Origin: Saprospirales bacterium GYS_P2D
Lineage (GTDB): Bacteria; Bacteroidota; Bacteroidia; Chitinophagales; Saprospiraceae
DNA length: 64,000 nucleotides
Assembly: GCA_009833045.1 (NCBI GenBank)
Contig: WUUP01000001.1
Span: forward strand, 799,586 to 863,585
Reading direction: 5' to 3'
Each line of letters starts with the position of its first letter. The stretch's first letter is position 1. Made by a program: the position numbers and the translations under genes. Positions 1,883 through 8,189 of the stretch are shown one piece after another. Below the pieces are notes generated by a model. That model searched no databases. It saw only the letters and a list, made by a program, of their open reading frames with translations, and was not told the origin of the DNA.

Positions 1883-4720
1883 CTATGCATGTTGTGCTTC
1901 CCACTCCAGTTTCTGCTTCAGATAGTGACCAGTGTATGACTCCTTGACATTGATCAGCTCCTCTGGTGATCCCTCAAATACTAAATGTCCTCCGTCTACT
2001 CCTCCATCTGGACCGAGATCTACTATCCAGTCTGCTGCTTTGATGACATCGAGATTGTGCTCGACGATGAGTACTGTATGACCCTGCTCTACGAGTGCCT
2101 GAAAGGCTGTCATCAGCTTATTGATATCATCAAAATGTAGTCCTGTCGTCGGCTCATCAAATATGAAAAACTGATGATCCAGTCGATTTTCTTTGACAAG
2201 GAAGGAGGCCAGTTTCACTCGCTGAGCCTCTCCACCTGAGAGCGTACTCGATGCCTGCCCGAGCTGTACATAGCCGAGTCCGACATCATGCAGTGGCTGT
2301 AGCTTCTGGATGATCTTAGGAGCATCTGCGAAAAAGTCTAAGCTCTCGGTGATACTTAGCTGTAGGATTTCAAAGATATTCAGCCCTTTATACTTGATAT
2401 CGAGGATCTCAGGTTTAAATCGCTGTCCCTTGCAGTCTTCACACTCCAGCTTGACATCTGCGAGAAACTGCATCTCAACAGTGATATAGCCATCGCCTTT
2501 ACAGTTTTCGCAGCGACCTCCCTCTGTATTGAATGAAAAATGCTTTGGCTTATAACCTCTCACTTTGGATAGCTGCTGGGATACCATGAGCTTACGGATC
2601 TCGTCATAGGCCTTGACATAAGTCGCAGGATTAGATCGAGAGGAGCGTCCGATAGGATTTTGATTGATGAGCTCGACACCTCGGAGCAGTGAGGTATCCC
2701 CTGTGATCCGACCATAGCTACCTATCTTGCTCGGGTGACTGATACCGAGCTCTTTGAGTAGAGCTGGGTAGAGGATATGCTTGACCAGAGAGGTCTTACC
2801 AGATCCTGACACTCCCGTGATCACCGTCAGAGCATTGAGAGGTATGGTGACATCTACGCCCTTCAGATTGTGCTGGGAGGCTTTGAGGATTTTTATCTTA
2901 TTGGAGATTTTTCTTTTCTGGGCAGGTGTCTCGACCATCATGAGTCCATCGAGATACTGTTTCGTCAGGCTACGATCGACATCATGTATTCCATCTACAG
3001 GACCTTCATATACTATCTCTCCACCATGCACTCCGGCATTGGGGCCGACATCGACGATATGATCAGCTGCTCGGATCACCTCCTCTTCGTGCTCTACTAT
3101 GACTACCGTGTTGCCGAGATCTCGGAGATTTTCAAGGACTTTGACCAGTTTTGCTGTATCCTTAGGATGGAGACCGATGCTCGGCTCGTCGAGTATGTAT
3201 AGTGAGCTCGTGAGATTGCTCCCGAGCGTACGAGTCAAGCTGATACGCTGAGTCTCTCCTCCACTGAGTGTGGCTGCCCCACGATCCAGTGTGAGGTATG
3301 ACAGTCCTATATCACTCATGACTTGTAGGCGATTATTGATCTCGAGGAGTATTCGCTTAGCGACCTGTTGCTGATAGTCACTCAGCCTGATATGATCAAA
3401 GAAGTCTTTCAGATCTTTGATCGGGATATGTATCAGCTCACTGATTGTCTTGCCATCGATGAGGACATAGTTCGCCTCTTGTCTGAGTCGTCCACCCTGG
3501 CAGAGTGGACAGACAGTACGACCTCTATAACGAGCCATGGTGACTCGATTTTGGATCTTATAGCTCTTCTCTTGTAGCTCTGCGAAAAAGTCGTCAATCC
3601 CATCAAAATATCGGTTGCCTGACCAGAGAACACTTTTTTGCTCAGCAGTCAACTCTGCGTAGGGAGTATGTACTGGAAAATCAAACTGCTCAGCATTATA
3701 TATCAGTCGATCTCGCCACATACCATGCTTATCACCCTTCCAGCAGGCGATAGCTCCTTCGTAGACGGACTTTAGTTTATCTGGGATGACTTTATCTGGA
3801 TCAATGCCAAGGACTTGACCGTAACCTTCACATTTGGGACAGGCCCCGTAGGGATTATTATAGTTGAAAAGCTGAGGAGTAGGCTCTAAAAATTCTATGC
3901 CATCCAACTCAAATCGATTGTTGAAACCAATTTCTTCAGTACCGATGATATCTAAGATACACTCACCCTGTCCCTCATAAAATGCGGCATTGACACTATC
4001 TGCGATTCGCTTCAGGTTTTCTTCTTCAGCATTAACCACGAACCTATCTATCAATATCTGTATATCTCCAGCGATCTCTCCGATCTCTTTCTTCAGGAGC
4101 TTTTTCTGCGACTCGACGAAATCTTCGACGTAAGTCAACTCTCCCTGATAGCGGATCCGAGTATAGCCTTTTTGAAGTAGTAGCTCCAGCTCTTTTTGGA
4201 CTAATCGCTCACGATCGTAGACCACGAGCGGAGCGAGGAGCTGGACTTTAGTGCCTTCTTGATAAGTACTCAGAGCATCAATGACATCAGATACCTGATG
4301 CTTTCGTACGATCTCGCCTGACACAGGAGAGGTCGTGATACCAGCACGAGCATAGAGTAGCCGGAGATAGTCATAGACCTCAGTAAGTGATCCCACAGTC
4401 GATCGTGCATTGCTCGAGCTCACCTTTTGCTCGATAGCGATGGCTGGAGATATACCTTTGATAAAGTCTATATCGGGTTTTTTCATCCGACCTAAAAACT
4501 GCCGAGCATAAGATGACATCGACTCGACATAGCGACGCTGTCCCTCTGCATAGAGTGTATCCATGACCAGCGAGGACTTACCAGAGCCTGAGACTCCAGT
4601 GACGACTATGAGTTTATTTTTAGGGAGTCGGAGCTCTACGTTTTTGAGATTATTGGTACGAGCACCTTTGATATGTATCTCTTTCTGTAGGGCACTGACA
4701 GCTGATTCTTTATTTTTCAA
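1883..4720 (-). CDS. uvrA: UvrABC system protein A (excinuclease ABC subunit A)
   Basis: DNA-damage recognition ATPase of nucleotide excision repair; it loads UvrB at lesions. It has two ABC modules: Walker A GVSGSGKSS (about residues 42-50 from the start used here) and a second GVSGSGKTS; signatures LSGGETQRI and LSGGEAQRVKL; and Cys pairs of the zinc modules (CPKCEGYG, CPLCQGG, CENCKGDG, CEDCKG). The reading frame stays open up to an ATG at 4834, but that gives a 38-residue leader unlike UvrA. I place the start at the in-frame TTG at 4720 (LKNKESAVSALQKE...), which gives 945 residues, the usual family length, and leaves about 230 bp for the divergent promoter region. The stop abuts the downstream HAD gene. 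uvrC is also in the window (46101-47912) but far away. Function is certain; the start is not. Confidence 0.95.
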   Translation of the reverse strand: MKNKESAVSALQKEIHIKGARTNNLKNVELRLPKNKLIVVTGVSGSGKSSLVMDTLYAEGQRRYVESMSSYARQFLGRMKKPDIDFIKGISPAIAIEQKVSSSNARSTVGSLTEVYDYLRLLYARAGITTSPVSGEIVRKHQVSDVIDALSTYQEGTKVQLLAPLVVYDRERLVQKELELLLQKGYTRIRYQGELTYVEDFVESQKKLLKKEIGEIAGDIQILIDRFVVNAEEENLKRIADSVNAAFYEGQGECILDIIGTEEIGFNNRFELDGIEFLEPTPQLFNYNNPYGACPKCEGYGQVLGIDPDKVIPDKLKSVYEGAIACWKGDKHGMWRDRLIYNAEQFDFPVHTPYAELTAEQKSVLWSGNRYFDGIDDFFAELQEKSYKIQNRVTMARYRGRTVCPLCQGGRLRQEANYVLIDGKTISELIHIPIKDLKDFFDHIRLSDYQQQVAKRILLEINNRLQVMSDIGLSYLTLDRGAATLSGGETQRISLTRTLGSNLTSSLYILDEPSIGLHPKDTAKLVKVLENLRDLGNTVVIVEHEEEVIRAADHIVDVGPNAGVHGGEIVYEGPVDGIHDVDRSLTKQYLDGLMMVETPAQKRKISNKIKILKASQHNLKGVDVTIPLNALTVITGVSGSGKTSLVKHILYPALLKELGISHPSKIGSYGRITGDTSLLRGVELINQNPIGRSSRSNPATYVKAYDEIRKLMVSQQLSKVRGYKPKHFSFNTEGGRCENCKGDGYITVEMQFLADVKLECEDCKGQRFKPEILDIKYKGLNIFEILQLSITESLDFFADAPKIIQKLQPLHDVGLGYVQLGQASSTLSGGEAQRVKLASFLVKENRLDHQFFIFDEPTTGLHFDDINKLMTAFQALVEQGHTVLIVEHNLDVIKAADWIVDLGPDGGVDGGHLVFEGSPEELINVKESYTGHYLKQKLEWEAQHA

Positions 4721-4883
4721 GCAGGCGTATGATTTGATATAGACTAAACTGACGAAGATAGAGCTTGTTCTATTGAATCGTAAGAAATCACCAGAGGCAT
4801 TTTGTGCAATAAGCCTAAAAGCGAGGTATAGCACAGAGTCATTTCTACATTATGATTACCTTGAGATTTGTATAACACTTTAC

Positions 4884-4949: not shown

Positions 4950-6041
4950 TTGTATCTAACTAAAAAAATATCAACTCTACTCCTCGGTCTCTTCATGATC
5001 TTAGCTCATAATATGCATGCCCAGTCAAAATACAACAAGTCATATTTTGACGGTCCCTACGTCTTCTTTGAAGGTGATACGACTGTGGTCAAATGGGTCC
5101 ACGAAGGTCAGCTCTATGATACCAGCTACATAAAGGATGAGGTGCTCCCGGATCTGTCATTTATCAATGGTACTAATCTACCATATGAGATGCTCATAGA
5201 GCGAGATATAGCTCCTGATCACCAGACTGTATATGATGATATAGACACACTCGTAGCTATCAGTGACATCCATGGACAGTATGATCTCATGATCAAAATA
5301 CTGATGAATAATGGTGTCATAGACACAAAAGGTAACTGGAATCTCGGCAATGGTCATTTGGTAGTCACTGGGGACATCTTTGATCGAGGACCTAAGGTAT
5401 TAGAGATAGTGTGGTTCATGATACATCTGGAGCGACAAGCTGCTGCTGCAGGTGGCAAAGTACATGTCATGATAGGTAATCACGAATGGATGGTGCTCAG
5501 TAGCGACGTGAGGTATGTGCACAAAAAGTATAGATACATCAGTGCATTATTCAGAAAACAATACCATCGCCTATTTGATGAGTCGAGCTATCTCGGTAGA
5601 TGGCTGCGATCTAAGCCTGTATACCTCCGGATTAATGGCATTTCTTTCGTCCATGGTGGGATCAGTGAGACTTTCTTTCAGTATGACGTAGAGCTCGATG
5701 AGATCAATAAATACTATCAGGACAGTGTGCTCAGCGTGCTCAATACACCAGAAGGTGAGTCAGGGCGATTTTTAGTCAGTGACGAGGGGCCCCTATGGTA
5801 TAGAGGATATGCTTACAAAGATGAATATGATGAAAAAAGAACCAATAAACTTCTGAAGAAGCTCAAATCCTCTAGTATCGTGGTCGGACATACATCGATG
5901 CCAGAGATCTTCTCTCTGCATCGAAATAAGATTATCTTTATAGACTCGAGTATAAAACTGGGCAAAGGAGGGGAGCTATTAATAGTAGAGAATGGAAAGT
6001 TTTATAAAGGAAATGAGGAAGGAGTAAAATCTAAACTTTAG
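4950..6041 (+). CDS. Secreted PPP-type metallophosphatase (Shewanella-like phosphatase type)
   Basis: Extracytoplasmic serine/threonine-phosphatase-fold enzyme of 363 residues. Metal-binding motifs appear in order: SDIHG (D106, H108), GDIFDRG (141-147), GNHE (176-179), VHGG (234-237) and GHT (313-315). This is the PPP signature set; the GDxFDRG form and bacterial origin point to the Shewanella-like phosphatase branch or a near relative. The start is a TTG at 4950, chosen because it gives a full signal peptide (LLLGLFMILAHNMHAQS); an internal ATG at residue 16 would destroy it. The stop is 16 nt before a CotH-kinase-like secreted protein, so the two probably form an operon. Substrate unknown; a phosphoprotein or small phosphoester in the periplasm is possible. 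Confidence 0.85.
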   Translation: MYLTKKISTLLLGLFMILAHNMHAQSKYNKSYFDGPYVFFEGDTTVVKWVHEGQLYDTSYIKDEVLPDLSFINGTNLPYEMLIERDIAPDHQTVYDDIDTLVAISDIHGQYDLMIKILMNNGVIDTKGNWNLGNGHLVVTGDIFDRGPKVLEIVWFMIHLERQAAAAGGKVHVMIGNHEWMVLSSDVRYVHKKYRYISALFRKQYHRLFDESSYLGRWLRSKPVYLRINGISFVHGGISETFFQYDVELDEINKYYQDSVLSVLNTPEGESGRFLVSDEGPLWYRGYAYKDEYDEKRTNKLLKKLKSSSIVVGHTSMPEIFSLHRNKIIFIDSSIKLGKGGELLIVENGKFYKGNEEGVKSKL

Positions 6042-6057
6042 TATAAACACCTGTGTC

Positions 6058-7107
6058 ATGACATCCAAAATCTACAAGCACCTATTATTCCTATTCGTCG
6101 GTCTCAGCCTAAGCATAGCCAGCATCGCCCAGGCTGACTCCTCAGATCGCAAAAAGAACATATTTGACTATTTCTATGATCAGGAGGGCACACCTCTGAT
6201 ACGTATCGATACAGATACCAAAACTCTCTACCGTAGAAAATCCAAAGAAGAATACCAACCGGGTATTATCTCATTTAACGATCCAGAAGGAGTCATGCTT
6301 GATATCCCTATGAAGCTGCGTACACGTGGAAATATGCGAAAGCAACAATGCAACTACCCTCCTCTCAAGGTAAACTTTCAAAAAGAAGATCTCAAAGCAT
6401 TGGGCCTTTCAAAAAAGCTGGATAAGCTAAAATTTGTCCTACAGTGTGCTGGTAATAGTAGCTCCAAGGACTATCTCATGAAAGAGCGTCTCATCTATGA
6501 CCTCTATGACATAGTGGATCCTGAAAATGGATTCAGAACAAAATTAGTCAAGGTAGAAATGTGGAAAGATGGAGAACTCGATAAAGAACTCGAAGGATTC
6601 ATCATCGAAGATGAGGACCAATATGCGAGCCGGAGAAATGCTCGCATAATAGAGAGCGGCAATGTCCGTACCGCCAGTCTCAAACGTAGCCATTATCTGA
6701 AGATGGTCTTTTTTCAGTATATGATATCTAATACTGACTGGTCGATCGCTAATAAACACAATGTAGAAATGGTCGGTCTACCTGGCAGTCCAAGGATAGT
6801 AGCAGTGCCCTATGATTTTGATTATGCAGGATTCGTCGGTACTACTTATGCGGTGCCTCATGAGAGCCTACCTATCGAGAAGGTAACAGATAGGCACTTT
6901 CAGGGATATCTGGTCACAGAGGGCGAAGCAAAAGCTACATGTGATTTTTTCAATAAGAAAAAAGAAGAGTTTTATGCGGCCTGCGATAACGCCAGCTACT
7001 GTAGCGAAAAGGTGAGAAAGAATGCTAAGCGGCATCTTGAAGGTTTCTTTGATCTGACGGACTCTGATCGACGTATCAAAAGTATATTCGTGACTGATGT
7101 AAGGTAA
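6058..7107 (+). CDS. Secreted CotH-kinase-like protein
   Basis: 349 residues with a signal peptide (LLFLFVGLSLSIASIAQA). The order of motifs resembles the CotH atypical-kinase fold: RTRGN (88-92) followed by PPLKVNF in the N-lobe, a KDYLMKERLIYDLYD helix, EGFIIEDED (179-187), then a catalytic-loop-like stretch ISNTDWSIANKHN (223-235) and a metal-binding-like VPYDFDYAG (250-258). In CotH proteins the equivalent Asp residues act in phosphotransfer. The match is by motif pattern, not by search, so the activity is inference. It lies 16 nt after a secreted PPP phosphatase, which would make a kinase/phosphatase pair outside the cytoplasm. Alternative: a non-catalytic member of the fold. Confidence 0.6.
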   Translation: MTSKIYKHLLFLFVGLSLSIASIAQADSSDRKKNIFDYFYDQEGTPLIRIDTDTKTLYRRKSKEEYQPGIISFNDPEGVMLDIPMKLRTRGNMRKQQCNYPPLKVNFQKEDLKALGLSKKLDKLKFVLQCAGNSSSKDYLMKERLIYDLYDIVDPENGFRTKLVKVEMWKDGELDKELEGFIIEDEDQYASRRNARIIESGNVRTASLKRSHYLKMVFFQYMISNTDWSIANKHNVEMVGLPGSPRIVAVPYDFDYAGFVGTTYAVPHESLPIEKVTDRHFQGYLVTEGEAKATCDFFNKKKEEFYAACDNASYCSEKVRKNAKRHLEGFFDLTDSDRRIKSIFVTDVR

Positions 7108-7157: not shown

Positions 7158-8189
7158 TCAGTCTGCATCCGCTCCGAGTCTGCCCTCTGCGATCCACTGT
7201 GCTACATCCTCGACGGCATCCAGACCTCGCTGACCAAAATCCTTCAATCCAAAGAAGGCATGGACGGCTTTTTCATATCGCTTCAGGGTGATATCGACGC
7301 CGGCATCTTCGAGCTTTTTGGCGAAAGCCTCACCCTCATCTCTCAGCGGATCATAGGCTGCTGTCAATATGAAGGTCGGCGGAAAATCTGACACATCCTC
7401 CATGAGTATAGGACTGGCCTCCGGCACATGAGCGTCCGTAGGATCAGCGAGATATGCCTCCATGAACTGATCCATGGCCTGTCGAGTCAGATAATAGCCC
7501 TCAGCATAAAGTCGATGGGACTCTGTATCAGGATCTCTGACATCTGTCACCGGATATATTGGGACCATTTTTTTGATGGGCCTTTCGGGATAGCGAGTAT
7601 TGATAGCTCGGGTCGTAGTGATAGCGAGATTGCCCCCAGCACTATCGCCCATAGTGATGAGCTGATCGGCTGCATATCCATGCTCCCCACTCTGATCTAT
7701 GATCCAAGTGATAGCATCGATACACTCTTCATAGGCCTGCGGAAATTTAGCTTCTGGAGATAGCGAATAGTCCAGCGAAATGACTGGCAAACCAGTAGCT
7801 ATCGCTATCCTACGTATCTGCTCATGATGAGTATCACTACTCCCAAAACACCATCCTCCTCCGTGCATGAATACGATCAGCTGTGATCTATCTCCACCAC
7901 CTGCATCGTAGATACGAGCAGGGATATCCCCATGTCTGGTAGGAATAGATAGATCTTGGATCTTAGCTATTGGGAGTGATTTCTTGACTTTATTGGCATT
8001 CTTAGCGATGTATTTGTCGAGAGCAATGCGCAGTTTTGGGATGGGGAGAGCCCCGAGATCAGGGATGAACTTTAGCACGAGTCCAGTCTTAAAATCTACC
8101 ATGCCGTGCTCAGTCTTCTTGATATAGGAGACGGCACCACCTACTAATATGAGTACCGTCAGTATAGCTGTGAAAATGCCCATGTCCAT
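7158..8189 (-). CDS. Alpha/beta hydrolase, hormone-sensitive-lipase (HSL) type
   Basis: Esterase/lipase of 343 residues. It has the oxyanion motif HGGGW (109-113), the nucleophile elbow GDSAG (S183), a later acid region TAAYDPLRDEGEAF and the catalytic His in AVHAFFG, all typical of the HSL family. Residues 4-22 are a hydrophobic segment that probably anchors it in the inner membrane. It is the last gene of a leftward run of lipid/acyl-CoA genes, 6 nt after an SDR, so it probably releases or processes acyl groups for that pathway. The natural ester is not identifiable. Confidence 0.85.
   Translation of the reverse strand: MDMGIFTAILTVLILVGGAVSYIKKTEHGMVDFKTGLVLKFIPDLGALPIPKLRIALDKYIAKNANKVKKSLPIAKIQDLSIPTRHGDIPARIYDAGGGDRSQLIVFMHGGGWCFGSSDTHHEQIRRIAIATGLPVISLDYSLSPEAKFPQAYEECIDAITWIIDQSGEHGYAADQLITMGDSAGGNLAITTTRAINTRYPERPIKKMVPIYPVTDVRDPDTESHRLYAEGYYLTRQAMDQFMEAYLADPTDAHVPEASPILMEDVSDFPPTFILTAAYDPLRDEGEAFAKKLEDAGVDITLKRYEKAVHAFFGLKDFGQRGLDAVEDVAQWIAEGRLGADAD

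Follow-up and report, generated by a model that had tools for sequence, protein, structure and literature searches.

The analysed window, a 64,000-nucleotide stretch of the Saprospirales bacterium GYS_P2D genome, carries a gene for a secreted Shewanella-like PPP phosphatase (Shelph) and, downstream of it, a gene for a predicted secreted CotH-like kinase, here called KIN. The two ORFs lie as the preliminary description of this DNA had drawn them, in tandem on one strand with the same short spacing (Table 1). The TTG start of the phosphatase gene is preceded immediately by an in-frame stop codon, which excludes a longer start variant. The spacing is consistent with a two-gene operon, whereas the flanking uvrA-like and alpha/beta-hydrolase genes are the operon boundaries and stand outside the phosphatase–KIN system. 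The synteny of uvrA, PPP–KIN and alpha/beta hydrolase is kept in a genome of the same genus (L169), with protein identities of 55–59%.

Table 1. Features at the phosphatase–KIN locus (coordinates within the window).
Feature	Coordinates	Strand	Remarks
Secreted Shewanella-like PPP phosphatase (Shelph, SDIHG type)	4950..6041	+	363 aa, TTG start, signal peptide ~residues 1-25
Intergenic gap, 16 nt	6042..6057	+	Basis: sequence
Secreted CotH-like kinase (KIN)	6058..7107	+	349 aa, ATG start; predicted function
UvrA-like excinuclease subunit, divergent, upstream	1883..4834	-	ORF translation; same order in L169
Alpha/beta-hydrolase-type ORF, convergent, downstream	7158..8189	-	ORF translation; same order in L169

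Both proteins had also been credited with signal peptides, and inspection together with a hydropathy script found hydrophobic N-termini on each of them. The two N-termini run from a basic stretch through a hydrophobic core to a small-residue cleavage region, the pattern of a signal peptide (phosphatase N-terminus: MYLTKKISTLLLGLFMILAHNMHAQ).

The phosphatase matched Pfam Metallophos (PF00149, E 5.7e-14), and its residues 31–361 aligned over the full length with the Shewanella protein-tyrosine phosphatase 2z72/1v73 (E 5e-78). The complete PPP metal-site set noted earlier (SDIHG, GDIFDRG, GNHE, VHGG and GHT) was borne out motif by motif in the alignment to 2z72, and D106, D142, R146, N177, H178, H235 and H314 were invariant in 30 relatives. 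A tree of 48 Bacteroidota sequences and Shewanella PPI placed the window phosphatase and PPI together in an SDIHG type, separated with 100% support from an SDIEG type, in which Glu replaces the metal-site His of SDIHG. By sequence, the window phosphatase is a member of the Shelph clade, a more exact assignment than plain PPP. A second Shelph in the same genome (G000 C23:415416-416414, L166) has no KIN neighbour, and beside it on the opposite strand lie two ORFs resembling a membrane protein and a LytTR-type response regulator. In the SDIEG subgroup (L045–L060), several Shelphs without KIN carry ankyrin-like repeats fused at either end, recognised by eye in L045, L046, L047, L048 and L052.

The downstream protein had no Pfam or NCBIfam match, the CotH model PF08757 remaining unmatched even at E ≤ 10, and PDB sequence searches with the protein or with an 87-sequence KIN profile gave no useful match. 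An AlphaFold2 model built on the 87-sequence alignment reached a pLDDT of 92.9 and a pTM of 0.88. In Foldseek its best match was Bacillus cereus CotH (5jd9/5jda, E 3e-10, TM 0.53), followed by the kinases CtkA and HipT. Profile comparison with hhalign against canonical CotH, represented by 12 Bacteroidota CotH proteins, scored 95.3% (E 2e-8) and paired the KIN NTDW motif with CotH N.D and PYDFD with WDxD. Among the KIN relatives, 27 of 87 matched PF08757 at E ≤ 1, the best at 4e-8. Taken from sequence comparison, KIN is a CotH-like family just beyond the present PF08757 model. Of 100 genomes from the window's family, 51 encode it, with as many as 11 copies in one genome, and a phylum-wide set of 296 genomes yielded it in 17. 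A canonical CotH (PF08757, E 3e-60), likely a lipoprotein, occurs once in the window's genome (G000 C23:93555-94670, L141 and L167), away from the PPP–KIN locus and with no Shelph, PafA-type or purple-acid-type phosphatase adjoining it.

The kinase-like motifs singled out in the preliminary description (RTRGN, NTDW...HN and PYDFD) fall in nearly invariant columns across the 87 relatives, and Lys125, Glu143, Asn225, Asp227, Asn235, Asp253 and Asp255 are invariant throughout. In the model, K125 (strand 123–128) and E143 (helix 134–153) occupy the places of the kinase beta3 Lys and helix-C Glu and are predicted to form the ion pair; D227...N235 is the predicted catalytic loop, and D253 and D255 are the predicted metal-binding Asp residues. 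Motifs and spacing equate D227 and D253 with D228 and D251 of CotH, whose D228Q and D251A mutants show no activity (PMC7821199). The predicted structure, whose comparison with CotH had been proposed as a check, thus has a CotH-like fold with an invariant Lys/Glu/Asp/Asn/Asp set. The label "CotH kinase" itself held in part: the fold and the catalytic Asp equivalents speak for it, but the window protein has no PF08757 match.

To guard against circularity, linkage of the two genes was counted only in 30 loci fetched by phosphatase query (L031–L060). In all 14 SDIHG-type loci, the window included, KIN either follows the phosphatase gene immediately (8) or is joined to it in one reading frame (6), and it adjoins the phosphatase in 5 of the 16 SDIEG-type loci. 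A KIN-based scan of named genomes, which may partly overlap those of the phosphatase-fetched set, contributed another 13 fusion loci as well as more adjacent pairs, chiefly from Saprospiraceae, Haliscomenobacteraceae and Lewinellaceae. KIN genes number only a few among several thousand genes, so the pairing cannot be put down to chance. The neighbourhood survey thus finds the pair conserved, as adjacency or fusion recurring across genera. Two loci have one phosphatase gene followed by tandem KINs, four in L064 (2599-8273) and three in L168 (3231-7766). A plasmid collection contained no KIN homologue, and its sole Shelph (Parabacteroides) had no adjoining kinase.

The PPP–KIN fusions retain the full motif sets of both enzymes behind a single N-terminal signal peptide, and the domains are joined by linkers of 1–9 residues without a hydrophobic segment; both domains therefore lie on the same side of the membrane. 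One modelled fusion had a pLDDT of 83.8, its phosphatase half superimposing on 1v73 with a TM of 0.91; the pTM was 0.63, a value that does not define how the two domains sit relative to each other. In the KIN tree, the fusions fall within one 19-row clade that also includes some unfused KINs, so that the fusion may have arisen once and been lost later.

Export types were matched within pairs. Among unfused pairs of the SDIHG clade, 12 of 14 have plain signal peptides on both partners, and a possible lipobox was seen in two closely related phosphatases. SDIEG-type pairs carry lipoprotein-type signals on both partners in five of six cases; in the sixth, the kinase is of the lipoprotein type and the phosphatase is anchored in the membrane. 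This covariation gave a Fisher p of 0.007, a value not corrected for shared ancestry. Judged from their N-termini, the phosphatase and KIN of the window organism are probably both soluble exported proteins of the periplasm, and in the SDIEG subtype both partners are predicted lipoproteins.

Counted over all KIN genes, 34 of 110 are fused to a phosphatase or have one on the same strand no more than 1 kb away, and the Shelph is one of several kinds. KIN adjoins PafA-type phosphatases (PF01663) in eight loci from at least two groups, and a purple-acid-type metallophosphatase in two loci with the order DUF4956–KIN–phosphatase. These arrangements suggest that pairing between KIN and a phosphatase happened more than once. 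No gene of the DUF4956, PycTM, Shelph, PafA or purple-acid kinds lay within ~1.5 kb of canonical CotH in the Bacteroidota loci compared, so that the pairing seems peculiar to KIN. The PafA-type family is unrelated to Shelph; its members lie upstream of KIN in L116, L123, L135, L136 and L137, and in L184, L185 and L192 a gene of ~130 aa separates KIN from the PafA-type phosphatase. The DUF4956–KIN–purple-acid-type sets are tight (L182:776-3881 and L191:68-3095), their KIN and phosphatase ORFs overlapping by 13 nt with mechanically called starts.

Several KIN genes keep other company. PycTM-like membrane proteins (PF18967) are encoded directly 5' of KIN or of PPP–KIN fusions in six loci (L077:4404-4961, L080:3680-4246, L083:1692-2558, L089:5348-6010, L105:1913-2554 and L122:2170-2811), and the four that were scanned matched PADLOC PycTM with E 3e-14 to 3e-18. 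A fusion of class III cyclase and PycTM lies downstream of KIN in L180 and L190, and a 2Fe-2S / class III cyclase / globin protein is encoded 9 nt 5' of the KIN gene in L079 (4562-5926). A Pycsar or other defence reading of the window pair was dropped, as no PycTM or pyrimidine cyclase adjoins it; a defence-model scan returned nothing beyond a stray weak Cas5b score, PycTM-like genes standing beside some relatives only. KIN also lies directly 3' of an acyl-CoA ligase-like gene in L091, L092 and L109, and directly 3' of an M50 peptidase–CBS gene in L108, L113 and L118, each set forming its own KIN clade.

Comparison and modelling thus establish two predicted exported enzymes with complete catalytic sites and opposite expected chemistry, which are genetically and sometimes physically linked. 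We consider it probable that they form an extracytoplasmic writer/eraser pair acting on the same target. KIN would transfer phosphate to a target that is secreted or lies in the envelope, most probably a protein; the phosphatase would strip it from that target, or from KIN itself, making the modification reversible; and in the fusions the two activities would be kept together in one place. The periplasmic writer/eraser pair envisaged in the preliminary description is supported by the KIN fold, the invariant catalytic set, the conserved pair, the fusions and the matched export types; KIN activity, the sharing of a substrate and the nature of that substrate are what we infer from them. Counting against this reading, most KIN genes outside the paired clade have no adjoining phosphatase (76 of the 110 loci), and KIN can evidently work alone. 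Many SDIEG-type phosphatases likewise lack KIN, and the pair loci hold no conserved third gene that would mark a substrate. The periplasm is not known to contain ATP, which leaves the phosphate donor unexplained and also weighs against the proposal. For CotH itself the ATP source is an open question (PMC7821199). Nor is a substrate match guaranteed, since CotH is a Ser/Thr kinase (PMC7821199) and the characterised Shelph, Shewanella PPI, is Tyr-specific (PMC535813), a report that also cautions that phosphatase specificity is not predictable.

A fuller version of the writer/eraser pair can be put forward only tentatively. Bacteroidota would then have a dedicated system of reversible phosphorylation whose secreted CotH-like kinase and phosphatase, fused in one clade, switch an envelope protein on Tyr or Ser/Thr by means of an extracytoplasmic donor, the KIN family having independently recruited Shelph, PafA-type and purple-acid-type phosphatases.

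The tight fusion linkers, and the L064 and L168 loci in which several tandem KINs share a single phosphatase, would also suit a phosphatase that resets an autophosphorylating KIN, giving one self-regulated kinase with no shared outside substrate, and CotH does autophosphorylate in vitro (PMC7821199). No feature separates this account from a shared substrate, and we regard it as unlikely. That KIN phosphorylates a non-protein envelope component (a polysaccharide, lipid or small molecule), which the phosphatase trims or recycles, appears to us quite unlikely: the closest solved relatives of KIN (CotH, CtkA and HipT) phosphorylate proteins, and among characterised phosphatases the nearest one acts on protein tyrosines, against which stand the PafA-type and purple-acid-type neighbours of other KINs, possibly of broad specificity. 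The kinase-like fold is, moreover, also found in lipid, sugar and small-molecule kinases. Other kinase-fold proteins, such as SelO and SidJ, catalyse different transfers, and KIN might do the same (AMPylation, for example), the phosphatase handling by-products or being merely co-transcribed. We hold this to be very unlikely, as the canonical Lys/Glu/Asp/Asn/Asp set is invariant, KIN is recurrently paired with phosphatases and the fusion makes mere co-transcription improbable. Despite the many unpaired KIN loci, the chance that the two genes are incidental neighbours without shared function is negligible, given the unbroken linkage in the phosphatase-ascertained SDIHG-type loci, the in-frame fusions and the covarying export signals.

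Searches of the open-access literature, outside which most subscription journals lie, on CotH with Bacteroidetes and phosphatase, on periplasmic Tyr phosphorylation and on DUF4956/VTC found no description of such a system. The earlier statement that no described Bacteroidota system is built from these two proteins therefore stands for that literature. Each enzyme kind is already known; it is their combination for which we found no prior description, and the adjacent or fused pair points to an undescribed system that adds and removes phosphate outside the cytoplasm. Reversible protein phosphorylation is usually placed in the cytoplasm, where the donor and the kinases are. An exported kinase–phosphatase unit would make a phosphorylation switch in the Gram-negative envelope, together with its donor and its targets, directly testable, and the PPP–KIN fusions are single-chain enzymes suited to purification and assay.

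Among known systems, the window Shelph resembles Shewanella PPI (1v73/2z72) in its full-length alignment, in all PPP motifs and in sharing one fully supported tree clade, but it adjoins a CotH-like kinase, to which its relatives are sometimes fused. KIN shares with CotH (PF08757; B. cereus 5jd9/5jda and B. subtilis CotH) the fold and the order and spacing of the catalytic Asp residues; it differs in being exported, whereas CotH is a spore-coat protein, in its own conserved motifs (RxRGNxRK, NTDWxxxNxHN and PYDFDYxG) and in being paired with a phosphatase. No phosphatase is known to be expressed late enough to reverse CotH marks in the spore coat (PMC7821199). With KIN, the CotH fold familiar from spore coats is placed in a context where its mark seems to be reversible. 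Like the bifunctional kinase/phosphatases HprK/P and AceK, the fused relatives would hold opposed activities in one polypeptide; those enzymes are cytoplasmic and of unrelated organisation, whereas the PPP–KIN fusions have two distinct catalytic domains and a shared export signal. The secretory-pathway kinase FAM20C shares the concept of phosphorylating exported proteins, but it is eukaryotic, located in the Golgi and without a fused phosphatase.
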